Part shown: piece by piece, positions 8,436 to 52,225 of the stretch | Layout of the letters: every line of letters begins with the position of its first letter | Numbering within the stretch: position 1 is the stretch's first letter | DNA from: Beroe forskalii | Taxonomy: Eukaryota; Ctenophora; Nuda; Beroida; Beroidae | Direction of reading: 5' to 3' | Assembly: GCA_011033025.1 (NCBI GenBank) | Contig: WFMF01000029.1 | Span: 186,001-250,000 of the forward strand | Length of the DNA stretch: 64,000 bases | Position numbers and translations under genes: made by a program | The notes under the pieces: generated by a model | Database searches by the model: none | Told to the model about the DNA's origin: nothing | What the model saw: the letters and a program-made list of their open reading frames with translations, nothing else

Positions 8436-10448
8436 TTGATCGGAGATGGGGCTGTGGCCCAGAGGTATTTCCTTTACGCGGAGGATAAGAGCGAACCCTT
8501 CCTCTCCATTAAACTTCGGATACGGCGCTGCGGTGGCTTTCGGTTGTTATCTGGCGGCGGGAATTTCCGGGGCCCACATGAACCCGGCAGTCTCTGTTGC
8601 TCTGGCGGTGGTTGGGAAATTCTCGTGGTGGAAAGTGCCGAAATACATCGTGGCTCAGATGATAGGAGCGTTCTCTGGAGCACTGCTTGTCTTCCTGGTT
8701 TACTATGGTAAGCTGTTGAGGGTCAAGTCATATTATTAGTTACTCATAATTTGAAGTTAGAACGGCTATCTGCCATAGTGCCACTAGATGATAAGTGGTT
8801 ATTGACCGTAGTTCATGCAAGGACAGCTGTTGTAGATTTATTAAGAGTGCAGCAACCCCCGGCCGTGAGAGCAGGCGAGTAGGTAAGGACTAAGGAGATT
8901 TTTGATTTTTTTTGAAACACAAGGAATTGTGCTCAACAGCATTATGTTATTCGTTTAGACTATTCGAGTCTTTGGTCTTAGTCCACTTTCAGTCCTTGGA
9001 AATGGACACCAATCTGTCAATGGGCCGCTTGCTTGTAAACATGGACAGTCGCCAATATTAGGAGTTTTCAGATGACAACAGGAGAGCAACATATCTTGAA
9101 TTCTGACAACAGATGACAACATATTATCATGATCATTTTATCATTCAGACAGACTGACAACAGGAGATGACAACAATTACCGGAGCATCTTTGGGACCTA
9201 TCCGCATGCGGACGTTACAGGCTTACAGGGGGTCAAATATTCGATCAGGTGAACTTCCACTTTATGATTTAAATAAAACTTCCCTGCTTTCGGTTGGTAT
9301 ACAAAATTATGTCTTCGATTTAATAATTCCAGGTTTACGACTTAGATATTTTGTTGTTCACACTGCTGAGTTTGCTCCACCTCTACCTCCCTAATTCTCC
9401 CTTATTAACCTATTTCACAATTCACCCCTATCTCCCAATTGCAGATCCTCGGCCCTATGATCCTCCTTCTCATCATCTGCTCGCTGACAGACCCCAAGAA
9501 CTCGCCCCTCCCCGGGGTGACACCCCTCATGTGTCGGGAGGTGCTGTGTTCGCTATAGGGGTCTCCATGGGGACTAACTGCGGGTACCCGCTCAACGCTG
9601 CTCGAGACCTCCCACCCAGATTCGTGTCTTTTATTGTGGGATACGAAAATACGTTCAGGTACGGCAAAAGGGGAAAAGAGTAAAGACATTTCATCTCACG
9701 ACATTTGATTGCAGGACCTTTCATCTCAGGACATTTCATCTCGAAATATTTCAACTCCGAGCAAAGGTTGGGGGTCTTGGTTATGATTAGGGTCAAAACA
9801 GGGAGATAAAGTGTTCTAAGATGAAATGTCGTACTATCCAACAGAAACATACAAACATTTTATCAGTGGATCGTTGTTAAATTTTAAACTTTACAACACT
9901 ACTTCATACAATCAAATTTGAGGATGGAATTTGTCCAACTAAAACAAAATCATTGGATCATGGTACTTTGAGAGCTGCATGATATTGTTCCCTCACTCAG
10001 CTCGGCCGTTTTATCAGCACAGAGCTCTCAAAGTAAGATAACACTAATATCTCATAACTCACCTCCTCTTTCAGTGCTCACAACTACAACTTTCTTCTTT
10101 CAGTGCTCACAACTACTACTTCTGGATCCCTATCGTGTGTCCGATTATCGGGGAATCCTCGGCACTCTCCTCTACACCTGGACCCTGGAGAAGGATGACA
10201 TTTACAACTGGTGTGCAGGTGGTTGCTGCTGTTGCAGGGGAGGCAGCAGTGTGGCACCTGACCAGGAGATGGAGGGGGTGGAGGGAGATGGATTGAAGAT
10301 GAGTCCTAAACCTCCCCGACCGGAGGAAAATGGGGAGCCTGATCAGGGGTACAACAACAACACAGGGTACAATGATCAAGGTACCACACTAGGATACATC
10401 GATCCGAGAACCACAAGGGACGATGTAGCTCTCGTTGATGCTGAATGA
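8436..10448 (+). CDS. Aquaglyceroporin (MIP family), 5'-partial, with frame breaks
   Basis: Glycerol/water channel of the plasma membrane. Recognised exons are 8436-8707, 9149-9248, 9445-9658 and 10104-10448, all with AG/GT borders. Seen in order: LIGDGAVAQ, the first pore motif GAHMNPAVS (AAC CCG GCA at 8581), SIFGTYPH, FDQ at the end of exon 2, LTDPKN, the second pore motif NAARDLPPR, NYYFWIPIV, then an acidic tail with a CCCC cluster. The Asp after Arg marks the glycerol-transporting branch. The second motif has Ala where NPA is usual. The first transmembrane exon was not found. Four single-base shifts are needed to keep the family frame: one base too many at AAA 8511-8513, one missing in GGGGG 9228-9232, one missing near 9531, and one missing in GGGG 10150-10153. 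Either consensus errors or a young pseudogene. Confidence 0.8.
9069..9175 (+). repeat. Duplicated acceptor region before aquaporin exon 2
   Basis: The start of exon 2 (ACTGACAACAGGAGATGACAACA after CAG at 9146-9148, given here as landmark words) is echoed upstream in the intron: TCAGATGACAACAGGAGAG at 9069 and TCTGACAACAGATGACAACA near 9100. These are imperfect tandem copies of the 3' splice junction. Confidence 0.55.
9873..10045. repeat. Dispersed repeat, copy in aquaporin intron 3
   Basis: AAACTTTACAACACTACTTC followed by ATACAATCAAATTTGAG here recurs with few changes at about 17,966-18,012 and 29,250-29,291. The stretch ends with an inverted pair, TACTTTGAGAGCT near 9963 and AGCTCTCAAAGTA near 10,023. 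It behaves as an interspersed, probably non-autonomous, element. Confidence 0.55.
10071..10120 (+). repeat. 29-bp duplication of the exon 4 splice acceptor
   Basis: TTTCAGTGCTCACAACTAC occurs twice, with acceptor AGs ending at 10074 and 10103. Only the downstream AG keeps the aquaporin frame (exon 3 ends in phase 2, then S-A-H-N-Y-Y-F-W). The upstream one would shift it, because the 29-base spacing is not a multiple of three. Confidence 0.75.
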
Positions 10449-10454
10449 TACGAT

Positions 10455-10550
10455 TGAAGTATTTGGCCTGAAGTATATGGCCTGAAATGTATGGCCTGAA
10501 GTATATGGCGTAAATGTATGGCCTATAGTATATGGCCTGAATAGTGAATA
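10455..10550 (+). repeat. Short tandem repeat after the aquaporin stop
   Basis: A 14-15-base word, ATGGCCTGAAGTAT and variants, is repeated about six times immediately 3' of the aquaporin stop codon, in its presumed 3' UTR. Confidence 0.7.
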
Positions 10551-12958
10551 CCAAATCCCTCGTAATATGAATTTATACACCAGTAAAAAAGGAATATTTT
10601 ACAATTAGAAAAGCACATCAATAATTAGGAAATATGAAATGGAAACAACTTAGATCTTACTGACCTGCAGTCATAGAGGATCAAGGATCTTATTTTGGAC
10701 ACCTCTGACGTGTCCATATTCCATATTCATTTAGATCCTCGCTCTACGGGCTAAAAGTCTAAACCGGATGCATCCCTCGGGAAGTATTCCAACATGGACC
10801 CGATGGGCGCGGGTTACATGTAAAAAAGATGAGGTAGAATCTTCAGATGAATGGGTTTTGGATCGAAACCACTAAGCCAGAGTTTTCGTCAGGTGCTGAT
10901 ACAATGGTACAGAATTCAACCAGCATCCCTTTCTGACTTGTAGACACTGAAATAGACACTGAGTTAGTGGAAAGTTGAATTTACAGACAAGTTAATTTGC
11001 AACTTTGCTAAATAACCCCAAATAGCGACTCTTATTTCAGAAAAATATAACTAAAAACAGAGGTTTTAATGACTCTTTAAATGTTCTTGAGTTGAAGGGT
11101 GGGTCAATATAGTTTAACTGTCGTGATAAATCAGATAACTCGAAACTTCATGGTAAAATCAACGCTAACTTAAGTACCACTGCACACCATGACATAAATA
11201 TAGAATGATAAGAATTAAAGAGCTGAAGACAAATGCGGTTAGAATTTTAGTTTACGATCCGTGAGTTCGAGAAATGAGAATCATTCTGAATTTCCGAACT
11301 CACGACCCCTAAACTAAAGTAATCCACATATCTTCATGATAGTCTAAAATCAACATAACTAACCAAAGAATAAGCTCATCAGATGAAAATTGGACTTGTC
11401 AGATATCGTGAATATGGTTGACATGTAGGAATGTTCTAAACTCTTCCAGTTCAGTCGAACATCGAATCTGGGTACCTTGAGTCATGCCCTAAGAAATAGA
11501 ATCTTTGTTATTGAAATTACAGCTATAGCACGAAAAGAAACTTGTTTATTAATATTTAAGTATTTAGTATTAGGAATGATTATTATTAATAGACCTCCTT
11601 TTCATAGGTAATTCCATTAACTATTAAAATTTAATTTCTTATTTAATCTTATACAAATAAATAGCATGTATGATTCATAATGGTATTGTAACTTTAAACG
11701 TCATGTCAATACTCATTTCTTAATTCATCAAATATTGGGACTCAGAGATAAAAAATAATTCAATTTAAACTGTCAATTATCTCAAAATTACATAAACACT
11801 CCCTATAAGCCCTGTAAGTATGAACATTTAATTTTCATACCCTGAACTGAGGCTTAAAGCCATTCTTTCGCCTACAGTAAGAAGAAGTTTCAATAGTTGA
11901 AGTTGACATTAGAGCAACAAATGGAGAATGTAGGCCTTTCTATAAGTGTTTGAAACTGAAGGTGAAAGGAATAGACAGGTGCTCAAGTTTAGACATGCGC
12001 ATGAGTTAATTTTGAAGAATTATACAAAGGTGTCAAGTTTAGACATGCGATTGCAAATGAGTTAATTCTGCAGAATTTTAGCTTTGTGCTTTATATTACA
12101 CGTTATATACTAATTTGATATATATATTTGACACTGGGGAGATTCGTTTCAAAATGATTCTGAAGTTCTAATTACTAGATTCTTGACACTTGTGCATATG
12201 ATAAACATTTCCATATACTGCGTTGATTTCTCACATTTGAGCATCTGCAAAGTAGACTTATTCTAGGAGAGTGACAGATGACATCTGTCAGAGAAATTAA
12301 GATCAGAGCTAAGCACGAAGCTGAGATTAAGGCAGATTTGTGACTCAGGTGCAACGAAATGCGAAGGGTGACTGGACTCCAAATAGTCAAAAAGTCGAAA
12401 TACGCTTAGAATAAAAGATTGCACAGAAACATCAGGCAATACCAAGTACCAGTAGGTAGTTCTGTACAATGTAAAATGAGAAGTGCTCTAGAACAGCCCG
12501 GACATCTTTTCAAAATCACATTAACATCACCATCCGTTCAATTTCATCCGTATAACACAATTCTCGCCAAAATAAAAATTCATAATACACTATTTAGTAT
12601 TTTAAACTGAATCTTCAATAAGTTAAAATATATAATTTGATTGCCGTTCCCCAAATTCGAACATAATATGAAATAAATCTAAGATTTAAACAAGGCAAGG
12701 TCAATTTAAGAATTCATATCGTTAAATCTGTTGAACCTATACCTTCCGAAAACGCATCTATAGTCAATATAAGCCAAACAATCAAGTTCATTAATAACTC
12801 AACAAAAACAAATTTTGTAATGAATCAATTTAAATACGCCACAAATAGCTCAAATTTAATTGCACAAAGTAGTGCTGCTAAGACTCAACATGAGTCAGTA
12901 ACAAGGGTACTTTGGTCAGTCAACATCTTGGTGTCTCGACCTATATAGTTAAGATACA
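10551..12958. other. Non-genic, AT-rich
   Basis: No supported exon. At about 11,975-12,080 a ~56-bp block containing AAGTTTAGACATGCG and GAGTTAATT is present twice. Short open frames near 12.2-12.6 kb have no recognisable domain. Confidence 0.4.
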
Positions 12959-13080
12959 TTGCGTAACACCCGTGCCTTTCAATGTTACAAGGCATTACGC
13001 CTGGGTGTTACAAAGTCACAAGGCGTAACGCCTGGGCGTTACAAAGTCAAAAGGCGTAACGCCTGGGTGTCACACAGGTT
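12959..13080. repeat. ~33-bp tandem repeat with palindromic core
   Basis: Three to four copies of a unit carrying AGGCGTTACGCCT-type palindromes (AGGCGTAACGCCTGGGTGTTA). The repeated dyad symmetry could form small cruciforms. No coding potential. Confidence 0.7.
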
Positions 13081-13392
13081 TCATGAGTTTGAGAGAAGAC
13101 CAATAATGGCAGTCTTGTGGAAATTTTTTTTTTTTTTAGGTCGGGACACCAGTATGAGTATGAGTTTCGCTTGTATCTCAGTATCTGATAGCTAGTATCT
13201 GATAGCTGTACTGGAGAGCAGGCATGTGAGAGCACTGATTTTGATTTTCGCTTTAGTATCGGTGGTGTTTTTGCCTACCCGCACGATCCCCAAATCGTCA
13301 TGACATTGACCAATCAGCGCGTGAGTTTTCAGTCAACTCGCACTCTGATAGCGGTTAGCACGGTTCGTTGAAGCGTCTAAATCCGCATAAAA

Positions 13393-16300
13393 TCAGTGAT
13401 AGCAGTGAGCACGGTTGGTTGAGGCGTTACTGCTCCGTTTGAAAGTCGTTACGAAGCGTTTCCGGAAGAAGCGGAAGAAAACCTGCTTCAGTTCTACGTC
13501 AGGAGCCACGAGGAGGAGGCAGCCGAACAGGGAGTCCGCGAAACTGAGCAGCATTATACCGGCGATAGAGTCGTGTTTACACAACATCTGAAGATGGAAG
13601 GATGTAAGAGGGGGTGTTAGAGTCGTGTTTACACAACATCTGAAGTTGGAAGGGTGTTAGAGGGGGGGTTAGAGAGGATATAAGAGGGGGTGTTAGAGTC
13701 GTGTTAGAGTCGTGTTTACACAACATCTGAAGTTGGAGGGGTGTTAGAGTCGTGTTAACACAACATCTGAAGTTAAAATGGGTGTTAGAGTCGTGTTTAC
13801 ACAACATCTGAAGTTGAAAGTTCCCCCAAATTTCGACGACATTAATAATAAATGTCGTCGAAATTGGTGAAACTGATAAGAAAACTGATAAGAAAACTGA
13901 TAAGAAAACTGATAAGAAAACTGATAAGAAAACTGATAAGGGAAATGAAAAGGAATCTGATAAGAAACTGATACATCCAAGGAATTGCCAATTGCTGTGT
14001 ATATTGTATAATGCCAATTGCTGTGTATATACATCCAAGGAATTGCCAATTGCTGTGTATATTGTATAATGTAAACTCCAACACAGACAGTAGATTGTAT
14101 AATATATTCAGTGCATTTTCTAATAAATTAATTTAATTCAATTATTTATAGATTTAATTAAGATAAGAGCTTAGTGATATGAATATGTTGCGTGTCAGTT
14201 GTATGTTCTAACCAATAAACTTCTCAGAATGTATGACTATGATGAATGATATATTCATTGAAATATCACAAGAACACGACGTTTTAATTGTTACAATTGA
14301 AGATGTTCGTAACCACTCTACTCGTCCTATTTCTGATTAAATTGACCAAGGAATATCCCCCACATATTCCCCTGTATCCTACCTCTACGAAAGGAGGAAA
14401 GAGGAGGATGTAGTGACTCTTCAGGATAACATACGACACCAGGAATATCTTGATGGTGTGTTTAGAGGACTTGGTCGTGGAGAGGTGGGATGCTTTGGAG
14501 GAGTTTGCCTGGCGTTTCCTGCGAACTCGCATCTCTATCGGCGTGTTTGACCCGGACTATTCTGCCCGGGGAGTTGTGGAGGAAGGGGTTCAAGCTGTAG
14601 TGCGATCTGAGGGAGAGAGTGAGAGGGTTAGAAAGTGATGGAGTGAGGGAGGGGTTACTTTAAACACAGACACAGGGAGGTTCAAACTGTGAGAGAAGGA
14701 AACTGAGATTTTGTCAAAACAGAGACTCTGATTTTTTGGAAGATTGTATTTATCCTTGACTTCGTTAATAGAAAAATAATTTGCGAAAAGAATAATTTTC
14801 ATCTATCTGCATGTCGAGCTGTTCTCCACTCGACCACTCACTGAGTCTCGCTGAGTTCTGTAATGGTGGCGGGTGGCGGGGAGATGGCATTTGAAATGTG
14901 TGTTTTCCGGCGTACGGAAGGCCGGGTGGCGGTGGCTGACTTCCTCTGAACCCGACACAACTTCTTGATGTTAGCCCGGAGACAGTGGATGCGGAGCCAG
15001 AGCACGGGAATTATCAGGAAGGCTATGATGTAAACCACCAGGAAGACGTAGGAAATCATCTGAAAAATGCGCATAATTGAGGAAATCCCTCCTATGAAGT
15101 CACGTAAAAAGAGAATTTTGGAGTTATCGACAATCAAAGATCAGACATTCACCTCACAAAATAGAAATAATATTAAGATGAGATAGTCAGAACTAGAACA
15201 ACCAAATTACAAAATTCCAGATACCTGTGATGAAAGGGATGCTTTGTCGACGGTGCAGATGATGATTGGTTTGTAGGTACTGACTGCCTGGAACTTGATG
15301 ACACCACCAGCCGAACAGGCTACCACTGCGATACTCTTACACAGCAGGAACACAGCGAACATCAAGATCTGAGGGGAGTAAAGTGGTGTCCGATTAAAGT
15401 GGTGTCAGAGTGAGTGGTGTCAGAGTGAAATGGTGTCAGAGTAAAGTGGTGTCAGAGTGAGTGGTGTCAGAATAAAGTGGTGTCAGAGTGAAATGGTGTC
15501 AGAGTAAAGTGGTGTCAGAGTGAGTGGTGTCAGAATAAAGTGGTGTCAGAGTGGAGTGGTGTCAAAGTGAAGTGGTGTCAGAGTGAAGTGGTGTCAGAGT
15601 GAAGCGAAGTGGTGTCAGAGTGAAGTGGTGTCAGAGTGAAGTGGTGTCAGAGTGAAGTGGTGTCAGAGTGAAGTGGTGTCAGAGTGAAGTGATGTCAAAG
15701 TGAACTGCTTTCAAGCTGAAACGTTCATCACCATTAACAATGCGTATGTCGAGGCTTACCCTGGGCTGAGTCATGATTCGTTTGTACTGCAGGGCGTAGA
15801 CGATATAGACGAATCTCTCGAGCGTCACTCCTAACTGAAGAAATTTATATTTAATCATCTCTCCCATACAGGCTGATATTGATTAAAAATCAACAAACTC
15901 AAGATCAACAACTTACTAACTTAATAATTAATAATTTGATGTTCATGAATTGAAACCAAATTTCATCGTCACGATTTCATCGTCGATATTGAAATGATTA
16001 TGTCTGTAATTTAAGATCATAAAGCTCCGTACCACACAGAAGATGTTTCCAATGACGACTGCCATGATGGCAGATCCCACAACGAGGGGACAGATTCTGT
16101 TGAGGAAGAGGTGGGAGGAGAAAGCGAGGAGGGTGATTACCAAGGAGTAGATGATGTAGTAGACAGCGAGGAGGAGGACTAGGGAACGAGACTGAGGGGG
16201 TGAAAAGGGGTTAATGGAGTGGGGGAGGGGTTAAGAGTGTGGGTAAGACGTGGAATGAGGGGGTTAGTGGAGTGAGGGGTTATAAGATTGGGGGTTAGAG

Positions 16301-16844
16301 GAGTGGGGTAATTATGGGGGTCTTTGAAACGACAAACGACAACGTTGAGATGACCAATTCCAGCAACAGCCAATAAAAATTACCAAATTGTTAACCAAAT
16401 TAACAAAGTTAGTAAATCGTTAGAATAGGTGCACTTACTCTCTTCTTGAAGTTTATCCTGTATAGTAGGGCTGAGAAAACAATTATGTTTTGAATGAGAA
16501 CTGCGACAAACCACGTGGCAACAAGTATCTTGTTAACTGAGGGAATTACTGTCAAAATAATAAATTAACAGTGGTACTTTCAAACAGTCATTCAAAATAT
16601 TTCAAAAGATTTTGGGAAAAAATGGAAAATAAAACAAAAACTCCTGATACAGTATAGTTCAAGAATCATTTGAGTATATTATAATTTTATAAGGGGCAGT
16701 TATATTTGCAATTACAGTGGGATAAGGTATTTTTGAAAATTACAAACCTCCATAAGGTCTGAGATCTTCCATGCTTAGAAAGTTAGAGGTCAAAACTCCC
16801 CTTTGTGCATAAGCAGCTTCTTGGATGTATTTGTCATAGGAAAA
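13393..16844 (-). CDS. Class A-like 7TM receptor, eight exons (5'-partial)
   Basis: Minus-strand exons, 5' to 3': 16748-16844, 16439-16548, 16033-16191, 15760-15834, 15225-15368, 14842-15059, 14383-14518, 13393-13587 (stop TGA). Every junction is AG/GT and every phase agrees, giving about 377 residues without a stop. Seen: an extracellular N-terminus, TM1 (ATWFVAVLIQNIIVFSALLY), TM2, a Cys at the top of TM3, then LERFVYIVYALQYKRIM, which is the E/DRY motif and second intracellular loop of rhodopsin-type receptors, TM4, a loop-2 Cys (IIICTVD), TM5, a basic third loop, TM6 (IFLVSYVILKSHY), and TM7 plus helix 8 (LVAPDVELKQVFFRFFRKRF). NPxxY is not preserved and the usual TM2 Asp is not seen. Ligand unknown; the style recalls lineage-expanded chemosensory-type receptors. 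The first exon with the initiator Met was not identified. Confidence 0.8.
13567..13820 (-). repeat. Five copies of the exon 8 acceptor of the 7TM receptor gene
   Basis: On the minus strand CTTCAG|ATGTTGTGTAAACACGACTC is the true acceptor and start of the last coding exon (AG just above 13587). The same ~30 bases recur upstream in the intron, ending near 13,650, 13,734, 13,774 and 13,816. Each keeps the CAG and the first 15-20 exon bases, so each is a potential decoy acceptor. Confidence 0.85.
13866..14085. repeat. 11-bp AAACTGATAAG tandem and duplicated 60-bp block
   Basis: Six head-to-tail AAACTGATAAG units (13,866-13,940) are followed by a block containing CATCCAAGGAATTGCCAATTG and GCTGTGTATATTGTATAATG that is present twice. 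It lies inside the last intron of the 7TM receptor gene. The core CTTATCAGT also builds the minisatellite at 47.2 kb. Confidence 0.75.
15375..15720. repeat. ~16-bp minisatellite beside a splice acceptor
   Basis: About twenty copies of AGTGGTGTCAGAGTGA and variants fill the intron next to the acceptor of exon 5 of the receptor gene (exon high end 15368). On the transcribed strand the repeats are pyrimidine-rich (TCACTCTGACACCACT) and run directly into the CCCCTCAG acceptor. Confidence 0.85.
16192..16330. repeat. Pyrimidine-rich repeats before receptor exon 3
   Basis: On the minus strand, words such as CCCCTCACTCCACTAACCCC and CCCCCTCATTCC recur up to the acceptor CCCCCTCAG at 16,192-16,200. 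The pattern looks like an amplified polypyrimidine tract. Confidence 0.55.
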
Positions 16845-26975: not shown

Positions 26976-26977
26976 TT

Positions 26978-30069: not shown

Positions 30070-33000
30070 ATCTGTGCAAAAATTATTTACAAAGGTTTTA
30101 TTGTTGGAATGTGTTCTAATGGGTCCCATGAAGGTCTCCAAAGAGTGTTAAGGTGCTACCTTGAAGGGAAAAGTCAGAGGGCCACGCCCTTTTTCGACCG
30201 TGGAAATTTTGAGGAAAAATGAAAATTCAGTTTTTATATGATATATGACATGTGGGTACCCTAAACCTATGTTTTTGGGACGGGGAATCGATTCCAAACA
30301 CTTTCAAAGTCGTATCTACCTTCCTTGACTCAAAACCGGCCACGCCCATTTTGCGCAAGGCATTTTTGAGGTCTAAAAGCTATTTTTCAGATTAATGCGA
30401 TATATGGCATGTAGGTACTCTAAACCCATGTTTTTGGGACGAGAAATCGATTCCGCACATTATTAAAGTCGTATCTACCTTCCTTGCCCCAAAACCGGCC
30501 ACACCCATTTTTTCGTATTGGATTTTTTGACCGCCACAAAGATATTTTTCAGTGAAGTGCGATGTATGGCATGTAGGTACTCTACACCCATGTTTTTTGG
30601 GACGAGAAATCGATTCCACACATTATTTAAGTCGTATCTACCTCCCTTGACCCGATACTAGCCACACCCACTTTTTGTGTATGAGATTTTTGGCCCACCA
30701 GAAAGTTATTTTTCAGTTAAATACGACATTTAGGATGTAGGTACCCTAACCCATGTGTTTGAATAAAGAAATAGAATCGATTCCACACATTATCAAAGTC
30801 GTACTGAACTTCATTGATCCGTTTGTGGTCACACGGCCACTTTTTGTGTAGGGTATTTTCGACCAGTCTAAAAGATATTGCTCAGTGACATAAGATATGA
30901 TGCATGTTGGTACTTTAAACATGTTATCAGAATTGATTATTGATTATCTGAGTATCTGGTCGAACTAGCTGCAGTAGTTTAGGTTAGTCATTCGAGGTAA
31001 CACTTGTTGATTGTCTTCCCACATAAAAGTCCATTGGTCTGCTATGGTCGTCCTCTACTGGTGAAAGACAAAATTCTGGAAACAAAAACCAACCCAGAAA
31101 TCAAGGAGGCGCGGCAGTCAACTAATGTTTAACCTATCAAAACGGGCAAGGCATCCCTATTCCTCCCTTGGGAGCGAGGAATGAAATTTATTGAGCTGCT
31201 TTTCTGCTCCTGCCCGACCAGTTCCTTTCCGACTGCTACTGTCATAACTTTATTCACTTCTCTGTTTGTTGTATGCTCTGCTAGATCGAGGCTCCGCTGT
31301 TATTGAGGTGAAGAGTTTATCAATCCTCACTCACTGGCCTTGAATTTTTCTCTCAGTCTTTCACTGGGGTCGATCAATTCATTAAAATGTCAGACATTCA
31401 CTCCTCCTTTCCATCTTGGATAGAAAGGATAAATGGACATCCACCTATGTTAAATTCAATTCAATGCCCAGCTACCCTTCAAGATTTCTATGGCAGTGTA
31501 TTTGTCTGAATACTTCCTTGTCAGCTATCCCTGTAGGCATCCAACTTCACGACATGCCAAACCTTAAAACCTAACCTCTTGTTTTCTGTTCGGTCATTCT
31601 CTTAACCTGAGCACAGCGGGTTTTCTCTTTCCCCTGCTTATCATTTCAGCCGTGCCCATCTCTTTAACCCGGAGCAGGTCTGTTGTGTCCCACTATCACG
31701 AAGCCATTGCCAAGCGACCTCAGCTCTGGAACCCTATCTTCTCGGCGAAATATCACTTTCAATGCTTCGTTGGCAAAATTCCTGTTGTAGTAGACTGAAA
31801 TTGTGCGAAAGCATCCAGAAACCTGGTCAGCCGAGAAGTGAGTTCCTCACAATTGTCTTTTTCTGGTACCCATGTACAAATCTAATTACCATCCATATCA
31901 AGATATCACAGTGATGCCGTGATGGCATGGAAATCTTTTAATGGTAAGATGGTAGAGAATGGATGTATCTCTACAATTTATCCTGGATTTAGAGTACATA
32001 CTTACCTATATGGGTGACTTATCACTTTTGGTCGCTGGGAAAGGAAATATGACGTCCGCTTGCTTACGTTAGGTGATCAAACATTTTATCTGTTAAAAAC
32101 ACTAACTTGGAATGGAGCCAAATTCGGGTAGGTTTAGTGTTTGCTGGTTCTGCTGCACAACCAACACTCCTAGGCAAACTGCTCAACCTTTGGCTTTATC
32201 AGTTTATCCCTGGAGAAGAACCTCCACCCTTGCACACCATGTCCTGTCTATCCCCCATGTATGCATTATGTATGTGTGCACCTTGGTGGGTGCTGGATGC
32301 CGTGGCAAGACCCTTCACAAGCGACTGAGGGTGGCGACCACATTAGGCGAAAGCAAGTGCAAATCCAAAAGCCTGTGCAGCAGAGGACAGATAGCTCAGA
32401 GACATAGTGATTGTATAATGTATATTAATATCAGAATATCGACCATTGGGTAATAGACCCCAATGACCACAGATAAGAGGATTATCTGCCAACAAATACG
32501 CAAAAGTGGGCGTGACTGGTATTGGGTCAAGGAAGGTCGACACGGCTTTGATAATGACGTGGAATCAATTTCTCGTCACAAAAACATGGGTTTAGAGTAC
32601 CTACATGCCATATATCGCATTAATCTGAAAATAGCTTTTCTACCTCAAAAATGCCTTTGCGTAAAAATGGGCGTGGTTTTTTGAGTCAAGGAAGGTAGAT
32701 ACGACTTTTATAATGTGTGGAATCGATTTCTCGTCCCAAAAACATGGGTGTAGAGTACCTACATGCCATACATCGCACTTCACTGAAAAAAATACCTTTG
32801 TGGCGGTCAAAAAATCCCATAAAAAAGTGGGCGTGGCCGGTTTTGGGGCAAGGAAGGTAGATACGACTTTAATAATGTGCGGAATCGATTTCTCGTCCCA
32901 AAAACATGGGTTTAGAGTACCTACATGCCATATATCGCATTAATCTGAAAAATAGCTTTTAGACCTCAAAATGCCTTTGCAAAAATGGGCGTGGCCGGTT

Positions 33001-33266
33001 TTGGGTCAAGGAAGTTAGATACGACTTTGAAAGTGTTTGGAATCGATTCCCCGTCCCAAAAAACATAGGTTTAGGGTACCCACATGTCATATATCATATA
33101 AAAACTGAATTTTCATTTTTCCCTCAAAATTTCCCACGGTCGAAAAAGGGCGTGGCCTCCTGACTTTTCCTTCAAGGTAGCACCTTAACACTCTTTGGAG
33201 ACCTTCATGGGACCCATTAGATCACATTCCAACAATAAAACCTTTGTAAATAATTTTTGCACAGAT
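30070..33266. mobile_element. Foldback element B with five ~160-bp arm repeats per side
   Basis: The termini ATCTGTGCAAAAATTATTTA (left) and the exact inverse (right, ending 33,266) open arms of about 800-900 bp. Each arm is a series of about five degenerate ~160-bp units. Each unit carries GGCCACGCCC, then CTAAACCTATGTTTTTGGGA, then GAATCGATTCC. The left arm runs to about 30,950 and the right arm starts near 32,500. The interior is single-copy-looking with a few coding-like fragments. No transposase was recognised and no clear target duplication seen, so the element is probably non-autonomous. Confidence 0.8.
31650..31798 (+). CDS. Candidate terminal exon inside foldback element B
   Basis: After an acceptor-like CTTATCATTTCAG, an open frame encodes SRSVVSHYHEAIAKRPQLWN, then IFSAKYHFQCFVGKIPVVVD and a TGA stop (49 codons plus two phase bases). 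A second coding-like stretch lies upstream at about 31,012-31,128 (GRPLLVKDKILETKTNPEIK). The family is unknown. It may be transposon-encoded or captured. Confidence 0.25.
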
Positions 33267-37356: not shown

Positions 37357-40300
37357 GTGCAAATCGTGATACCCTTTAATGACCGGTTGTAGAAGTTAGT
37401 TTAGGCCATCTAGAATCATGTTTTAGCGTGATCCAAAATTTTTGGGAAATGGAACATGGTCTAGTGACCACGCCCTTTTTGGGCGTGGGAAAATTCAAAA
37501 ATTCGAATAGAAAAATTATTTAAGGCCAAATATAGCATGTGAGGTGTCTAAACCTATGTTTTTCGGGACGCTGAATCGATTGGAAGGGTTATTTTTAAGT
37601 TTTGACAGTCATACATGACGTCAGGGACCACACCCACTTTTTACCGTGGGAAAATTTGACCACTTTTGCAATGTGCAAACATAAGTCATACCATAGCATG
37701 TGAGGTGTCTAAAGCCATGTTTTTGAGGACGCTGAATCGATTGGAAGGGTTATTTTCAGGTTCTGACTATCACATGTGACGTAATTGACCACGCCCAGTT
37801 TTATGTGTGGGAATATTTGAGCATATTTTGCATTATGTAACTAAAATTCATGTTATGGCATGATGGGTGTCTAAACTAATGTTTTTTGGGACGCTAAATT
37901 GATTGCAAGGGTTATTTTGAGTTTTGACAATCATACGTGATGTAGGCGACCACGCCCACTTTTATCGTGGGAAAATTTGACAACTTTTGCAATATGCAAA
38001 CATAAGTGATGCCATAACATGTGAGGTGTCTAAACCCATGTTTTTTGAGGACGCTGAATCGATTGAAAGGGTTATTTTCAGGTTCCGACCATCACATGTG
38101 ACGTAATTGACCACGCCCATTTTTCTGAGCAGGAATATCAATTGAGTATATTTTGTATCAGGTAATAAAAATTCATACTATGGCATGTTGGGTGTCTCAG
38201 GTCATGATTATTGGGACGTTGAAACGATTGGAAGGGTCATTTTGAGTCTTGGCTATCATAGTCACCGTGATACGTGACGAATTGTCAGCCACCTTCACTT
38301 TGGGGGATATTTGAAAGTTTGTTAGCATCGAGTAAATCAGTTATCTGAATATGTTATTCAAAACCCATGTTTGAATCGATTGGAAATTGTCTTTTGAAGA
38401 TTTATAGTCAGCATTATAATATTTGACGTAATTGACAGGGAATATTCTTCTAATAGGAGGTAAATAAGGGTAAAAAGAATTATTACCCTCCCGTGGCTCA
38501 AACTCCAGTGTGATAATTATCGATATATCACTCCTTTATAGGACTACTGAACAGTGGCGGAATAATAGAGCAGAATATTGTTTAATAAATTGTTGATTCT
38601 ATGAAGGGCACTCGATAATCTATAAAAAACGTTGAATTCAGACGAGGGTCGTCAGACCCGAGTGGTAAGTACTGTTTGTCGGGTAATAATACAATTAACA
38701 AACTCATGGATCGTGTGATATCGAAAATTGTCAAACTCGGCTAACGCCTCGTGTGATAATTTTCGATATAACGCTCCCATTCGTTTGTTAATCGTACAAT
38801 ATTAATTGATTCAGTAAGTTCCAAGCAATGGATTACTTCTGAATTTCTTATAATAGGTGTGAATTTACAGTAATAATTACTTAATTAATGATTCCACGTG
38901 ATATTTTATTGCACACTGTGAACAGGCATATAATGATAGGATAAGAAGTCCAACTGGAGGCCGTGTGATAGTTTGATTATAGATAGAACAGGGGTCAGTT
39001 ATAAACTATATTGGGAGTACTGGGGTTCAGGCCCCAATATCACATGGCTCTGGGTAAAAGGTGTAGCAGATCTCGGTCGTTCCCCTTGAACGTGTCATAG
39101 TTCAGGGAAGTGGTAATTCAGATTCTGCGCTACACACATCGTACCCCACCTCAAAGGCTAGACCTTACGGCTTACCGGACATAACCAGGTCTTGATTCCA
39201 GATGGTACTCTATATTATGTACCGAGATGTGGCACCGTTACAGGCAAACCAAGTAGAATAGATCCACAGTGGATCATGACTTAGAAAAGCAAGCCATAGG
39301 TTATTGCAATAATATCATGATACATGGACCACCCCAGATCTTAACAGCAGGTCACCTACTCTAATAAGCAACATCCCAAGATGTCGTTCATTGAATTCAT
39401 TGCTGTTCAATGTTCTCAGTACAACTGGAAAGTAATGTTCTCTTCAGTGTTATGTAGGAATAAGCTTTTTTGTTCAATTATTGTCTGTAAAGTGTAAAGG
39501 CATGATCACCACCTATGACCCGGCATCCAGGTATTCAGGTATAGTTGTGCACTGTTGGACTAGTCAAAATAGTTGCACATCCAATTGAGTACCAATGAAC
39601 TCTTTGCCATGGACTCATGGAGGGTTGCCACCACTTCATGCGTGTTTGGTAGGGAGTACAAATAGGTACGTCTTGTGAGATGTAAGGATAGATCATTGGA
39701 ATTGAATTCTGACCATCAAAATATGGCACGTATAATGGCAAATACACAGATCTGGTACATTTGGCCACATATGTTAGGACTTACAAATAACCCTTTAGTT
39801 CCTACTTTAAAATACTTAGTCCTTTCATTCTCGATTCTTCCATTCGGTTTCTAGTCGTAGAAAACACTGTTTTAGATACCTACAAGATAATATGTCTAGA
39901 CTCGTTATAATGATTACCCATCACAATATTTCTCAACTATTCTCACAATAGCAGTGGCCGTGGTCACTAACATCACAATTTCACAAATGATTTTCTCATA
40001 ACTCACAAATAAACCTTCCAATTGATTCAGCACCTTGAAACAATACACATCCATCATGCATTATATAGACGGATGAATTTTAATTATGCAAAGCAAAAGT
40101 TGCGCCACGTTTAACAATTGGCGTGGTCAATAAAGTCACACGTGATGGTCGGAACCTGAAAAAAACCCTTCCAATCAATTCAGATAAAAAGTGGGTGTGG
40201 TCGCCTACATCACGTATGATTGTCAAAACTCAAAAATAACCCTTGCAATCGATTTAGCGTCCCAAAAAACATAAGTTTAGACACCCATCATGCCATAGTA

Positions 40301-40794
40301 TGAATTTTGGTTACATGATGCAAAATATGCTCAAATATTCCCACGCATAAAACTGGGCGTGGTCAATTACGTCACATGTGATAGTCAGAACCTGAAAATA
40401 ACCCTTCCAATCGATTCAGCGTCCTCAAAAACATGGCTTTAGACACCTCACATGCTATGGTATGACTTATGTTTGCACAATGCAAAAGTGGTCAAATTTT
40501 CCCACGGTAAAAAGTGGGTGTGGTCCCTGACGTCAAGTATGACTGTCAAAACTTAAAAATAACCCTTCCAATCGATTCAGCGTCCCGAAAAACATAGGTT
40601 TAGACACCTGACATGCTATATTTGGCCTTAAATAATTTTCCTATTAGAATTTTAGAATTTTCCCACGCTCAAAAAGGGCGTGGTCACTAGACCATGTTCC
40701 ATTTCCCAAAAATTTTGGATCACGGTGAAATATCATTTCTAATGGCCTAAACTAACTTCTACAACCGGTCATTAAAGGGTATCACGATTTGCAC
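37357..40794. mobile_element. Foldback element C, relative of element B
   Basis: The termini GTGCAAATCGTGATACCC (left) and its inverse (right, ending 40,794) lead into arms of five ~160-bp units each. GACCACGCCC-type words lie at about 37,466, 37,627, 37,787, 37,948 and 38,108, and their inverses at 40,122-40,680. Each unit has GTGTCTAAACC(C/T)ATGTTTTT, GGGACGCTGAATCGATTGG and GTGGGAAAATTTGA. The same unit length, order of motifs and core appear in element B, although flanking bases and termini differ. The interior (38.4-40.1 kb) has no recognised transposase. Confidence 0.8.
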
Positions 40795-43534: not shown

Positions 43535-43680
43535 AAAAAGCCAAAAAGAGTAGGCGAAAATATTAAATGACTAAATTGATAGATTAAGAAAACCTATAAA
43601 TAAATGAAAAAAGCTAAAAAGGAAAGGCGAAACTCTTAAATTACTAAATTGATAAATTTAGAAAACCTATAAATAACTGA
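43535..43680 (+). repeat. ~78-bp tandem duplication
   Basis: Two copies of a block with GAAAAAAGC(C/T)AAAAAG, AGGCGAAA and AAAACCTATAAATAA. AT-rich, non-coding. Confidence 0.7.
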
Positions 43681-45531: not shown

Positions 45532-47170
45532 ACAGGATCATTGTGAGGAGATATGAACAGAGAGATATGAACAGAGTGAGAGAGTTATGGTGGGGGTGAT
45601 TGCTTAAATAGGATGAGTTAATGATATGTTCATTGACAATTATTATATATTGAGTGTGGAGTTGAAATCACGGAGGTTGAAATGTTGGATGATTTCAGCC
45701 GGGACATGCAGCTAATTCCTATCAGTCCACGATTAAAATTTTATATTGGCTGATAGTTTAGGAGTTAAAGGTAACAATCGATTAATCCGATTCCAAACAA
45801 ACGAATCAGGTGATTAAAAAACCGCTCCGATTGATTTAAATGTGATGTGGAGGAAATGGGACAAGATTCGTCATAGACTAATTATCAGACAACTCGAAGA
45901 TTGAATATATTTAAGCAGGTGTTAGAATATGCACCTATCCATTGAGAGTTGAGACATTGCAAAGATCGATTGGCTGACAGGGTGTGGGCTGTAGTCGTGA
46001 TAAGTAGGACTCTGAGTAGCTGATAAAATTCTCAGATTTGTAGTTCATTATACGTGACAACATGACATGACTAGGCTACGAATGGCTAGCAAAGTGACTG
46101 ATTTTATGAACCGGAGCCATAATTATGCAGTATGTAATTAACTAATTAAAGCCATGACACTGCTGACTGCTCGTATTCATGAGGTTGTAAGAGCTGGTGA
46201 TTGCATGGAGACACAGAGACATGCATTATAATTGCAATAACTCTGCAATATGAATAATAAACTACCTTACTAAAGAAATGCCACACTTAATGCGATACTT
46301 AATTAGAGCAATTTTGATAAACTAGCATTAATCAAGTGCGCAGTGTGCACCGATTACGTGATGCACACGTAATTTTAAGTGTGCTATAAGAGTGCTAAGC
46401 GTACCATAGTACTAGAAGAATCTAGTATGAGAGGGGTAGCAGTGGAATCTTTGATAATGCAAAGATTGAATTTTATTTTCATTTTCAACCAATATGAGAA
46501 TTCGATACAGAAGTGATTGACAATGATATCTGATCTCACCCTCAGGGATGTTTGAAGAAATTTCAGTATTTGTAGAAACTACAATTAAGTAATTAATGAT
46601 CAATGATGTTTCCCATTTTCCTGCCTCCCTACGATTCGAAAATAACAGAAAAGTTCTGAATTATTGTGCTTTTAGTTTTAAAGCAAATTTTAAAGCAAAT
46701 TTTAAAGCAAATTTTAGTTTTAAAGCAAATATTTAAGTCGTAAATGTAGGTCTTAAAACAAATACCAAGGTTTATTTATAAAGGTTGTAATTTGGGGATT
46801 TTTCAGAAAAATCCCCATTTTATCACCCACCATGACATTTCGAAATGACGTCATTATCATATGTTAACGAGAGTAATAACTTGAAAAATCCCCATCTTTC
46901 AACTTACCAAAATTTGAAACAAATAATATGGTAAAAATCGCCAATTCAAAACTAACAAGGATTGAAATTTGAAAAGATTCCCAATACTCGGATATAGAAT
47001 AAACACAATAGAACCAATCACCAGTTCATCGGGCATTGTTTGGTCGAACACATTTAGCATGATCTCGACTGAATATTTGGTCTTTAAAGTTAAATTTTTC
47101 TTAATGAAATTAAAATTGAAAATAGTAGACTTTTCATTTTCATAGTATCATTATCTTACCAGCCATTCAA
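45532..47170. other. 3' flank of the receptor gene, no further gene seen
   Basis: Just after the stop codon the words GTGAGGAGATATGAACAG and AGATATGAACAGAGTGAG are short tandem copies of the end of the CDS. An AATAAA lies near 46,256. AAAGCAAATTTT is repeated at 46,680-46,730. No exon recognised. Confidence 0.4.
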
Positions 47171-47174
47171 CCCA

Positions 47175-47475
47175 ATGTCGTTATCTTATCAGTCTTAATC
47201 TTATCAGTCCTTATCTTATCGGTCTTATTCTTATCTGTCTTAATCTTATCAGTGGTAATCTTATCAGTCTTAATCTTTTCAGTATTAATCTTATCAGCAT
47301 CAATCTTATAAATATATCAGTCTTAATCTTATCAGTCTTAATCTTATCTGTCCTAATCATATCAGTCTTCTCTTAATCTTATCTCTCTTAATCTTATCAA
47401 TCTTGATCTAATCCGTGTTAATCTTATCTTTCTTAAACGTATCTTTCTTAATCTTATCATTTAAAATCTTATAGT
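47175..47475. repeat. TCTTATCAGTCTTAA minisatellite
   Basis: About twenty imperfect copies of a 14-15-base unit, TCTTATCAGTCTTAA. It lies 3' of the glycosyltransferase gene. The core CTTATCAGT is shared with the repeat at 13.87 kb. Confidence 0.85.
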
Positions 47476-47764
47476 TATATCTATGGTCCCAACATGAGAT
47501 GAACGGTTAGTTAGCAGATATCAAATTGAACAACTTCAATTCATTCATGAATTAAGATTTAATCAAAATAAAAGTAAATTCAAAATCGATCCAAATAAAT
47601 AGTTAGCTCTCCAAATAATTTCAAATAATTCCCGATATAGCTTCAAGATTATCTCCGATTTTCACCACGATAGCCTATATTCGCGTAAAATTGTGCAAAC
47701 AACTCCTTTGTTCAGCATTTTTTTCACTCTGATCTTTATGTTTTCCCGAGGAGTGAAAGTCCCC

Positions 47765-49275
47765 TCAAATACTCATGTACTTCTTGACGCCAACCAATCC
47801 CAGCACCAACAGAGCTGGAGTGATCAGGATATCCAGATAAAAGAGCTCATACCACGGCTGATGCCCGGGTAGGAAGCTATAACCTGATGCCACCGCATCC
47901 AGATATCCCAGGATGTTCTCCTCGGTCGGCATAGTGGTCATTATCTGCCGCCGGACATCCCTCAGGGTCTTCTGGAACCTCCCATCGGTGCTGTTCATGA
48001 TCTTCTCTACGATTTCACCAGCGCTGGTCCCCTTGAGATCGAGAACATTCTCCCCGATGCCTGTTTCCGGGGCCTTCACGGCATTGTAAAACTGATCCTT
48101 AGCGAACTGCGGCACCACCAGCATGGGTTTCCCTGCGCAAGCAGTTTCCATCTTGCTGGAGTGTCCCCCGTGAGTGATGAAGAGTTTGAGGTTGGGATGC
48201 TGGAGGAGAGACTGTTGGGGCAGCCACGAGAACATCTCACATTGTCCGGAGCATCGGGCACCTTGTTCTGCTTCCACACCACTTTGTAAGGCAGACTGGC
48301 GAACACTTCCAGCCACTTCCTCTGCTCCTCCTGCGGAATGTCCATCTGGAGGGACCCAAACGACATGAAGATGAAGCCCTGAGTAGCGTTGTCAATGAAC
48401 TCCCCTAGTCCAGGGTAGGCGGCTACCTCTTCAGCGCTGTACTCCGTACACATGGCTCCCCCAAGGTTCACAACACCCGGCCCAAACGGAGTGGGTCCGT
48501 CCACTAGGGGGTGCTGGTGGGTGTTCATCAGCAGCAACTTCACCGTCTTGTACGTTTCCGTGTACCCCGGGTAGTCAGGGATGTTGGATCGCAGCACCGG
48601 CTCGATGTACCAGTTAACTGCCGCCTTGTTGAAGAAAGCCATCATGTTCCGCATCAGCAGGTTACCAAATCTAGCAGTTATGGAGGATTTCATCTCCCCG
48701 TGGTCCTTGCCCATGAGCAGGATATCCCCGATTTTAGTGCTGGAAGCGTAGAGAGGGAGTCCCAGACGAGAGAGGTGGAGAGGGAAGAGGTAGGGAGCTG
48801 TCACGTGGAGCACCGTGTTTTTAATACCCAGCACGTGACCCAAACCCATGGCACACACATCGTAATACGGGGCAAAGGAGAAGAGAATATCGTATTTTCT
48901 CCCTGAATCCTTCAACTTCCGAACGTTTGGTTCACCCCAGAACCTCTCGCACGAGCTGAGCGTATCATTGATCTTCCCGAAGGTCCTCTTGACAGTGGTA
49001 GTGAAGGAGTTGTCATCACTGTCGTTCCGTCCACTCCCATGCCCGTTCACCAGGGCTTCACAGTGCGGGATTGCCAGTTTCTCAGCCCTTTCACTCACGT
49101 ACTTGGGAAGGTTGGTGCTGAGGTAGGTGACGGTGTGGTGGTGGGAGAGGAGGAGGTTAGCCAGGGGACCCGAGACTGTCTGGTGGGAGCCGGAGCCGAA
49201 TACCGTGACGAAGAGAACGTTCCAGGAGTGAGCGGTGGGGGAGAGAAGGGCAAGAAGGAGGAGCTGGAGATACAT
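47765..49275 (-). CDS. UDP-glycosyltransferase (UGT family), one frameshift
   Basis: Transfers a sugar from a UDP-sugar to small lipophilic acceptors; family members are type I membrane enzymes of the ER. Start MYLQLLLLALLSPTAHSWN is a signal peptide. The N-terminal acceptor domain runs to about residue 270 and is followed by FGPGVVNLGGA and GFIFMSFGSLQ. The UGT signature is FSWLPQQSLLQHPNLKLFIT then HGGHSSKMETACAGKP with VVPQFAKDQ. A C-terminal hydrophobic anchor (LDILITPALLVLGLVGV) ends in a short basic tail, KKYMSI. The total is about 503 residues, as usual for the family. The frame breaks once: after DAPDNV (48,238) reading must shift to the MFSWLPQQ frame, as if one base were missing next to GTGAGATG. 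The coding region is otherwise one exon, with an acceptor (CCCACAG) 17 bases before the ATG. An assembly error or a recent pseudogene are both possible. Confidence 0.9.
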
Positions 49276-49492
49276 ATCGCACTCGCAGGAGACTGTGGGA
49301 GGGTTAATTAGGGTTTTGAGAGAGAAGGGTTAGCAGGAGCTGATACATATGTTACAGGGATTATGGGATCTAGGAAGGTTAAATAGAGTTAGGGGGATCA
49401 GAGAAGGGCTAGCATTAGCAAGACCAGGGGACTGTGGCAGGGTTAAATAGGGTTATGGGAAGAGACAGAGAAGGGCGAGCAGGGGACTGTGG
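49276..49492 (-). repeat. Repeated acceptor and signal-peptide start upstream of the UGT gene
   Basis: On the minus strand the acceptor CCCACAG|TCTCCTGCGAG (exon from 49,292) has relatives at 49,432 (GCCACAG|TCCCCTGG) and 49,487 (CCCACAG|TCCCCTGCTCG). At 49,348 a second ATG begins MYQLLLTLLSQNP, a copy of the true start MYLQLLLLALLSP, which then runs into a stop. GCCCTTCTCT also recurs in the farther copies. Confidence 0.65.
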
Positions 49493-51713
49493 GGGTGTTA
49501 GTAGTAAGGGTGAGCAATACCAGGGCCTGATACACTACACAGCTTTGATGCGATGTTGATAATAAGATGATTCTAGCAATACATCAGATATTACAGTAAA
49601 TGCGCTAAAGCTAAAACTAGATCTGCAGTCAATTTTATGGTTCTATAAACCAATTAAACCAATGCCAATGGGACTGAGAGTTGGGCACAACTATTAATAA
49701 CAACGTTAAATTAAAAAACCTAATTTCAGAACTTCAGAAAACACCTAAAAGCAATATGAACAATAAACTGACGCTCAGAGGTTTTGAAGCAAAAATGCAA
49801 AGTTAGCCGCATAGATCTCTTTAAAAGTTATGGGATGGTACTAGGACGGTACTCAGAAATCTGGGCTAATTGATTAATTCAAACTAATGAATCACATTAA
49901 TTGACACACTATACCAATCAGTGTACGTGAGTATTGCTGTACTGCTCTATATCTCTAGATATACCATTACCAGCATGAGCAAGTTAATTAGATTACTGCT
50001 ATTGCTAGATGAATCTTATTATTATTTCTTCAATAATTGCAGCACTTAAAGTTAATTAACTTTAACTTTAAGTCAATGAATTGCGATTAGTCTTATCTTT
50101 GATCAAATTATAAGGCTTCCTTGTACATTGATTTAATTCCGTGAAACATTCATATTGTATAATAGCCGTCCAAAATTTGAGAAAACGGGCATAAAAATGA
50201 TGGCACAAAAGATTTTGAATGAAAATGCGGACGTTCGGAGGCCAGAGGGGGTATTTCAGGTTGCGGGCGTTTGCTGACTACTACTAGGGGGGAGGGAGGG
50301 GTCTAAAATAGCCGAAATTTTGCGAACGTCCTTTATAAATGGCCCCTTGACTCTTGCCCAAAAATGAACTATCACTATCAGTCTCATCACTTAGCTCATG
50401 TTCAACAGATTGGTACTTCTGATCATGAAGTTTAACAGTAGAAGTACAAGTGAAACTGTTGCGTTATATATCACAAATAAAAATATACATTTTATTTACA
50501 GTTACAATTATTTATATTTAAGAATCATCGCATAATTATATTTATATTCGACTTTTTGAAGTGATGATACCATCATCAACTGCACAAATTCATCTTCAAG
50601 TATTAAATTGTCAAAAGTAACGAAACTGATTTTCACTTAGATTTGGTCAAATTCCGTGATCTGAAAAATATCCTCATTGCAATTGCATTAAACAAGTCAA
50701 GTTTAACGGTAGCCTGAAAAAAAAACAATGCAAGTTTGTGACACGATTTTTTCATTATCAAAATTAAATGTCGATATAAATCTTGATAGTAATTAGTAGA
50801 AACATATTATTATTACACAGAAAGAATATTATTCGATATATTCGCACTGATAAACTGATAGCAGCGACATTAGGCATATGTATATGCATTCCACATTTGA
50901 TTAGATAACAGATATCCCATTCAAGTATATTTATTTGCATTTTGTAACCAAAAGATATGGATGGGTCGGATGGATTATATTTATTTGCATTTTGTAACCA
51001 AAAGATATGGATGGATCGGACTACAGCACTTCTGTACTGTAGTTCGTAGATTAAAATAGTATACTCCTTGCATCCTCCTTTTTTGTGTGGGTTAGCAATA
51101 GCAACGCACTCAGACTTGACGCACTCAAAGTTGAAAGTCATCTTCCCTTCATCATCAGTTATTAATACATTTATTAGGACCATGGAATCATAACAAAGGG
51201 TAGAAAACACAAACCACCTACTAACGCAGAGACAATGGAAGTGGAACCACCGTCCCTCTCTTGGAAAGAACACCAATTATCCTGATTCCTTTTCCTCCGA
51301 AGTCCTGATATTGTAAGCGAACTCTAAGAATTCCGCAATCCAATTTCCTGAGTCCACATTCCTCTGGATTTATAAATCGCTCAGTCCACAGGAATAAATC
51401 AATAACCACACTGAACTATACAGTCGGTGGTAGAACGCACATATTATCTGAAGACATATAAAAACAGCTCCTCCTCCCACCCTCCTTCCTCCGTTCACCA
51501 ACTCTTCACTTGAGTCTATGGGAATGACACCTCTCTTACGCTAATGTTGCGAGTCCCAAGAATGCCCTCTGAAATTTCCTCATGACTGTCATTTGCACGT
51601 GTGTATTGTGTAATACTGCCGCGCGGCTTGGAACTTTCAGAATGCTCATATTTCTCGAATTCGCGAGACACCAGTGTAAAAGTAAACCGCCAAATAATTT
51701 GCACCCTAATTGG
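49493..51713. other. Non-genic stretch, with a 45-bp duplication
   Basis: TATATTTATTTGCATTTTG plus TAACCAAAAGATATGGATGG is present twice in tandem at 50,927-51,020. Minus-strand frames around 51.05-51.4 kb (GKMTFNFECVKSECVAIANP and TERFINPEECGLRKLDCG) look mildly protein-like but cannot be joined with confidence. They may be an unrecognised exon pair or 3' UTR. Confidence 0.35.
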
Positions 51714-51959
51714 CTAGCTCCCCGAGCACTTGTCCAGGTAACAGTACGTGGTCGCTATCACCTCCGCAGTTTGTCGGGAGAAGTCGTCAGGGAAGAGGAG
51801 GGTCAGGTTGTTGGGGGCCTTGTACCCGAAGTAGAGGGGCGTGTCCCACTCCTTGGCTAAAGCGGACTCCACCTCGTTCAACATGTTCCGCTGGTACTTG
51901 TTGAGGTGTTGCGAGAGTTTCTTCTCCTCCATTAGCTGGTATACTAGGTGCTTCTTAGG
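51714..51959 (-). CDS. Terminal exon of an unrecognised gene
   Basis: After a good acceptor (CTCCCTCCTTTCAG) an 82-codon exon in phase 0 encodes PKKHLVYQLMEEKKLSQHLN ... NEVESALAKEWDTPLYFGYK ... LLFPDDFSRQTAEVIATTY, CYLDKC and a TAG stop. GC-rich codons and charged, well-mixed residues mark it as real coding sequence against its AT-rich flank. I do not recognise the family. No preceding exon was found before the satellite region, so it may be an orphan exon or the first intron may be very long. Confidence 0.6.
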   Translation of the reverse strand, partial: PKKHLVYQLMEEKKLSQHLNKYQRNMLNEVESALAKEWDTPLYFGYKAPNNLTLLFPDDFSRQTAEVIATTYCYLDKCSGS

Positions 51960-52225
51960 CTGAAAGGAGGGAGAGGGTTATATGAAGGAGATACTGGACA
52001 GTGAACGGAGGTCCCAAGGAGAGTGGGGACTGAGAGGGGATGGGGTGTATGGGGGTGGGGTGTATATGGATTGGAGGGTTCAGGATGTATTAGCCCACGG
52101 GAGAGGGGATGGGGGTTATGGGTGGGGGATCAGAAAGTAGTGGAGAGGAGGTATACCAGGTGCTTCTTAGGCTGAAAGGAGGGAGAGGGTCATATGAAGG
52201 AGAGCCTGGACGGAGGTCCACAGGA
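51936..52225 (-). repeat. Duplicated acceptor junction of the 51.7 kb exon
   Basis: The junction GAGGGAGAGGG...CTTTCAG|CCTAAGAAGCACCT at 51,936-51,998 (plus-strand span) recurs at 52,150-52,220 inside the upstream intron. The copy has the pyrimidine tract, the CAG and about 22 exon bases, with a spacing of about 215 bp. Confidence 0.8.

Follow-up and report, generated by a model that had tools for sequence, protein, structure and literature searches.

Copies of splice junctions at both ends of introns in the genome of the ctenophore Beroe forskalii

Junction copies and repeats in the window

The DNA analysed here, referred to as the window, is a 64,000-nucleotide stretch (bases 186,001-250,000 of contig 347) of the Beroe forskalii genome, which comprises 216 Mb in 1,134 contigs. 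It carries an aquaporin gene on the plus strand and, on the minus strand, a receptor-like gene, the start of a UGT gene, a terminal exon and a further putative exon with its acceptor at 13,587. Tandem arrays identified by TRF make up 16.6% of the window. At each site, the best copy of a junction 40-mer (25 intron and 15 exon bases) or 24-mer (12 and 12) was sought within 600 bases on the intron side, with pass thresholds of 30/40 and 20/24, respectively, and the extents of copies were taken from BLAST. Twenty-four strings were scored in this way; the resulting count of 13 acceptors omits two copies and one of two alternative aquaporin exon 2 sites. Acceptor scores were obtained from a splice matrix trained on this same genome.

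A sequence-only reading of this DNA had named five acceptors at which a segment spanning the pyrimidine tract, the AG and the first coding bases was thought to be duplicated into the upstream intron. Three of the five have clear copies (10,104, 13,587 and 51,959), the UGT site is weak, and aquaporin exon 2 fails. At the three clear sites, the copied 40-mers or 24-mers place the end of the intron, the splice site and exon bases within the repeated unit.

The junction of aquaporin exon 4 is present twice on the plus strand. The true acceptor (10,096-10,116, first exonic base 10,104) is preceded at an offset of 29 bases by a copy (10,067-10,087, first "exonic" base 10,075) that matches it at 22/24 and 27/40 positions. 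TTTCAGTGCTCACAACTAC occurs at both places, and the trained matrix gives both acceptors a score of 12.5. Position 10,104 was taken as the true acceptor because family continuity is maintained across the hand-joined exons, which match MIP with an E value of 1e-37. BLAST at the settings used did not list this duplication, which is plain on inspection of the sequence. At 9,069, proposed as the acceptor of exon 2, the best matches within 600 bases on the intron side were 20/40 and 14/24, and no junction copy was found. Short TGACAACAGGAGA repeats lie here (9,069-9,167, plus strand), and by BLAST just 18 bases are repeated (9,069-9,085 versus 9,150-9,167, E 0.013). Position 9,069 is upstream of a stop in the aquaporin coding frame and, as this frame opens only at 9,133, it is not the exon 2 acceptor, barring another assembly frame error. 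By eye, the reading frame of the gene is broken by a single base at two homopolymer runs, at about 8,511 and 10,150, and these breaks reflect either sequencing error or a decaying gene.

The minus-strand acceptor with first exonic base 13,587 lies in an array (13,561-13,820) of units of about 40-52 bp, each containing TTCAG followed by ATGTTGTGTAAACACGACTC or a variant, and its junction recurs at 37/40 positions at an offset of 52. This site had been read as exon 8 of the receptor gene, at 13,567; the copy is present, but membership in the receptor gene is unproven. Exon status was assigned from codon usage, which scored 0.45 over 48 codons on the minus strand versus 0.22 for the best plus-strand frame (true exons have a median of 0.34, and the 95th percentile of wrong open frames is 0.28). 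Pfam searches with this exon and with the receptor-like exons gave no match above the family cut-off. Because the open frame of the last receptor-like exon, which precedes it, ends at 14,841, the gene to which the 13,587 exon belongs is uncertain. A strand error, with a plus-strand exon and a copied donor at 13,567, was suspected and was dropped as codon usage favours the minus strand; a paralogue search with the plus-strand frames of this region matched the window itself and nothing else. Between the receptor-like gene and the 13,587 array there is also a plus-strand open frame (14,463-14,635) with a codon usage score of 0.39, versus 0.22 on the opposite strand, for which neither a family match nor a paralogue was found.

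The acceptor of the terminal exon on the minus strand (first exonic base 51,959) is matched at 38/40 and 24/24 positions at an offset of 212. The original acceptor and upstream intron (51,938-52,056) and the intronic copy (52,150-52,253, first "exonic" base 52,171) are 79% identical over 119 columns by BLAST (E 1e-22). A Pfam search with this exon yielded no match above the family cut-off. Upstream of the UGT start codon, a degenerate C/T-rich repeat occupies 49,286-49,534 of the minus strand, with BLAST matches between 49,286-49,337 and 49,425-49,483 (78%) and between 49,285-49,347 and 49,479-49,534 (68%). The putative acceptor at 49,292 is indeed accompanied by a repeat, with 31/40 positions matching at an offset of 139, but the repeat is weak and the 24-mer reaches just 18/24.

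Minisatellites adjoin two further acceptors, as the earlier reading had observed, with arrays within 25 nt of both 15,368 and 16,191 (first exonic bases, minus strand). At the former, a 16-bp minisatellite with the sense unit TGACACCACTTCACTC (15,376-15,704) ends 7 bases from the acceptor; at the latter, degenerate C/T-rich minisatellites (16,206-16,305) lie upstream of the junction. Other repeats were noted in the window. A 52-bp minisatellite, GACTCTGTGGGCCCGGCTCTATCTACTCCATTTGATTATGCTTGCTGCAGGA, forms three separate arrays (920-1,685, 53,929-54,925 and 60,956-62,277), one of which adjoins long open frames at 55-59 kb that appear retroelement-like by eye. Two stretches (30,240-33,095 and 37,531-40,689) are bounded by tandem repeats of about 160 bp that are inverted (30,240 versus 32,500, and 37,532 versus 40,185), the orientation being judged by eye. 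These stretches look like DNA elements with ends built of repeats.

Acceptors and donors in five gene families

Junctions elsewhere in the genome were sampled from the exons of five families: myosin, kinesin, TCP1, SNF and SNF2. A total of 338 domain matches were listed genome-wide, of which 220 fell within the 40 regions taken for analysis. Splice sites were set by reading frame, profile continuity and the trained matrix, with GT and AG required; the other consensus features, AG preceding GT and pyrimidines with C preceding AG, were recovered without being imposed. From 130 paired introns, 111 were kept on the basis of a reading gap of at most 3 residues and minimum site scores, and 19 were dropped. 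Adding 46 one-sided acceptors and 52 one-sided donors gave 157 acceptors and 163 donors. The median intron in the sample was 238 bases, and TRF arrays made up 10.3% of intron versus 1.0% of domain-coding sequence.

Junction copying was found outside the window, at rates that did not differ significantly between acceptors and donors. On the intron side, the 40-mer recurred with 30 or more matches at 5/157 acceptors and at 3/163 donors (p 0.50 by Fisher's test), and the 24-mer with 20 or more matches at 5/157 and 5/163 (p 1.0). A Markov null gave 0/555 at 30/40 for each junction type. Among the paired introns alone, the 40-mer search on the intron side returned 2/111 acceptors, 2/111 donors and 19/550 random intron positions. 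When both directions were searched at 30/40, the counts were 3/111 acceptors, 2/111 donors, 63/1110 random intron positions and 9/1100 random exon positions. The loosest threshold, 28/40, gave 6 acceptors versus 3 donors (p 0.33). The earlier reading had itself named donors and random intron positions as controls for an acceptor-specific process; this comparison was run, and its outcome is against such specificity, acceptors showing no significant excess over either. These counts would still accommodate a moderate excess at acceptors, given the breadth of the confidence intervals (acceptors 1.0-7.3%, donors 0.4-5.3%). Numerically, the junction rate falls between those of random intron and random exon, the order that would result if duplications were scattered everywhere and selection acted against changes to exons.

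Within the window, 3/13 acceptors passed 30/40, 3/13 passed 20/24 and 4/13 passed one or the other, and none of the 8 donors had a copy at either threshold. The difference between 3/13 acceptors and 0/8 donors at 30/40 was not significant (p 0.26). The acceptor rate was higher in the window than in the sample (3/13 versus 5/157, p 0.016), the window having been chosen for these sites.

One of the five sample acceptors, in L014, joins two exon matches over equal profile positions and represents a tandem exon; excluding it leaves 4/157, and the 3/111 acceptors in the both-direction search include it. The two acceptors (5027 and 5281, minus strand) belong to adjacent myosin exon matches covering profile positions 104-173 and 105-167. 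This tandem duplication perhaps provides alternative exons; there is a stop inside one match.

In all eight junction copies with at least 30/40 matches, the splice score differed from that of the original by no more than 1.2 bits, as expected given their high identity; for example, original and copy both scored 11.2 in L013, and both scored 10.6 at the L018 donor. The AG was lost in weaker matches (L013 at 4586, L023 at 1891). Among 12 hand-picked offsets, taken from four acceptors of the window, five of the sample (L014 included) and three donors, a single one was a multiple of three (p 0.054).

A TCP1-type gene that is present twice on a single contig (as L017 and L018) allowed introns of recent paralogues to be compared. 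Their exons are 95-100% and their introns 88-91% identical over aligned bases. In intron 1, a 37-base unit spanning the donor is present in about three copies in L018 versus one in L017; in intron 4, a 31-base unit spanning the acceptor is present in about four copies in L017 versus one in L018. The other two of the four compared introns are without such a difference. Both intron ends have therefore been altered by boundary-spanning arrays since the gene duplication. These differences may be gains or losses in either copy. The acceptor word CCCTCGTGTTTCAG, shared by myosin and TCP1 arrays, was considered as a dispersed family and rejected as coincidence; it has 15 occurrences in the genome, at about ten places, versus 1 for the reversed control.

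Position, composition and orientation of intronic arrays

The positions of arrays within introns were compared in 125 introns, obtained by adding 14 introns from 15 small regions to the 111. With intron ends trimmed by 30 nt, array coverage differed between the two halves of 31 introns and was greater on the acceptor side in 23 and on the donor side in 8 (sign test p 0.011, sign-flip p 0.0095). Without trimming the counts were 22 versus 9 (p 0.029 and 0.010, respectively), and counted by locus they were 18 versus 7 (p 0.043). The bias was significant at TRF scores of 40 and 50 (27 versus 10 at 40; by locus 20 versus 9, p 0.06), and was not significant at the stricter scores of 60 (17 versus 8) and 80 (12 versus 6). 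Arrays lay within 25 nt of 15/157 acceptors and 7/163 donors (p 0.08) or, in the 125 paired introns, of 13 acceptors and 6 donors (p 0.12). The 111 introns contained 35 arrays, and 23 of these were closer to the acceptor (p 0.09). The leftover 3' bias is weak, and we regard it as a lead only.

The suggestion that pyrimidine tracts are duplication hotspots fared unevenly. Pyrimidine-rich intron 40-mers were copied more often, the rate rising from 4.2% at 50-60% pyrimidine to 19.3% at 60-70% and 30.3% above 70%, but these 40-mers overlap and come from few arrays, with any internal copy present in 19/111 introns. The copy rate was elevated for purine-rich 40-mers as well, at 12.1% for those with less than 30% pyrimidine (n 107). 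When arrays in acceptor halves were compared with the remainder of the same intron, they had the higher pyrimidine content in just 16/28 cases (p 0.57).

The 16-bp minisatellite upstream of 15,368 belongs to a dispersed family of the TGACACCACTNNACYC type. Its two-unit pattern occurs 439 times in the forward and 769 times in the reverse orientation (1,208 in all), with none for the reversed control. An 860-base array of this family lies in sense orientation in a minus-strand intron (3571-4586) of the L013 myosin gene and stops 7 bases short of the acceptor, matching the spacing seen in the receptor-like gene of the window. Elsewhere, an array in L008, located outside the resolved introns, is in sense orientation, and a stretch of three units in L024 is antisense. 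The unit contains TGAC and, as TRAC peaks 10-30 nt before the AG in the sample, the unit closest to the acceptor may function as branch point and tract. CTRAC was found 18 times in sense and 2 times in antisense in the acceptor-half arrays; 15 of the 18 sense matches are contributed by a single gene, in two of its arrays, and by array 5 had more sense and 1 had more antisense matches.

Origin of the copies and their relation to known systems

The direct observations are the copies themselves, the similar donor and acceptor rates in the sample, and the array differences between recent paralogues. Their most probable explanation, in our view, is that short tandem duplications arise throughout the introns of a minisatellite-rich genome and that some of them span splice junctions, at either end, as in the "mirages" of lancelets. 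Local slippage or unequal exchange would create the duplications, and the resulting arrays would then expand and contract. A copy would at first retain its splice signal and then drift, events reaching far into exons would presumably be removed by selection, and the exon-proximal copy is probably the one that is spliced. Counting against position-blind duplication is the excess of arrays in acceptor halves, which such duplication does not predict.

That excess is what would be expected if pyrimidine tracts were hotspots and introns grew mainly from their 3' ends, constantly generating alternative acceptors, as the sequence-only reading had proposed. The greater number of arrays nearer to acceptors and within 25 nt of them, and the climb of copy rate with pyrimidine content, point the same way. 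Junction-spanning copies are, however, roughly as common at donors, the half-bias loses significance under stricter TRF scores, the composition trend comes from overlapping 40-mers of few arrays, with copy rates raised in purine-rich sequence too, and acceptor-half arrays exceed the rest of their intron in pyrimidines in just 16/28 cases. L017 and L018, moreover, differ at the 5' end of one intron and the 3' end of another. Growth from 3' ends is not borne out by the donor counts or by these paralogues, and we consider it improbable as the general explanation. A different account is that TGACACCACTNNACYC-type arrays are portable 3' splice modules, tolerated or favoured at acceptors, whose last unit serves as branch point and tract. 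The identical spacing and sense orientation in two unrelated genes, the dispersal of the family through the genome, the strand asymmetry of CTRAC and the position of the TRAC peak are consistent with it, but there are only two intron cases, the L008 and L024 arrays add none, and the CTRAC asymmetry is largely that of one gene; this account is unlikely. It is rather doubtful that units resembling a branch point plus tract, sometimes with the AG and exon start, accumulate preferentially and in sense orientation at intron 3' ends, and that the dispersed 16-bp family constitutes a mobile, repeat-borne 3' splice signal for unrelated genes. Finally, the homopolymer frame breaks in the aquaporin gene resemble those of an unpolished long-read assembly, and the copies might be assembly artefacts. 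This is highly improbable: the copies have diverged from each other (27/40 for aquaporin exon 4, 79% for the terminal exon), the differences between L017 and L018 are patterned, and single-base indels do not yield duplications of 29-212 bp.

Duplication at either end of the intron, our preferred explanation, agrees in several respects with what is described for lancelet mirages. As in the globin, Adh, troponin C and PGBD5 genes of lancelets, the unit extends across the splice site to take in both intron and exon bases, and many copies keep their AG or GT. The name derives from work on Adh3, and both boundaries are reported to be affected, with copy number varying between haplotypes and splicing remaining regular (PMC3087553). 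Lancelet PGBD5 is described as having comparable repeats at its 5' as well as its 3' splice sites (PMC3902484). Here, too, 5' and 3' boundaries are both duplicated, as seen in the acceptor and donor counts and in L017/L018, and copy number differs between near-identical gene copies, which are paralogues here and haplotypes in the lancelet reports. Unlike in lancelets, whose genomes are about 500 Mb, the copies occur in a genome of 216 Mb with a median sampled intron of 238 bases, and our junctions were read from genomic sequence, whereas lancelet splicing was checked against RNA.

The earlier reading is thus partly confirmed: the copies are real, are present elsewhere in the genome and match the known mirages in unit content and in affecting both boundaries, and their 3' specificity is not supported. 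Mirages were described gene by gene in lancelets, and in titles and abstract openings of the open-access literature, searched with limited terms, we found no description of boundary-spanning minisatellites outside lancelets. Counted over five gene families here, such duplications occur at about 2-3% of junctions, at the 5' as well as the 3' end of introns. Splice signals are still readable in the copies, and the phenomenon is general enough to be studied as a means by which alternative splice sites and changes in intron length arise. The five-family count lends no support to a special role for intron 3' ends.

Two other phenomena are related to these copies in form. NAGNAG-type tandem acceptors consist of two acceptors close together; at the four window sites the two lie 29-212 bases apart, and the copy includes the start of the exon. 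Intron gain by tandem genomic duplication of AGGT-containing sequence, in which the duplication yields extra splice sites (PMC3443670), is related in mechanism, as tandem duplication gives extra splice sites in both. In that process, as described, the duplicated segment is exonic and gives rise to an intron that was not there before, whereas here the introns already exist between successive domain segments, and the copies are located inside them or at their margins. One intron in the sample, on the minus strand of L008 (1614-1802), is 188 bases long, has ATGCTGAG followed directly by GT at both ends and has a low acceptor score of 3.3. This is what intron gain by AGGT tandem duplication would leave, and the intron is a candidate for such an origin.
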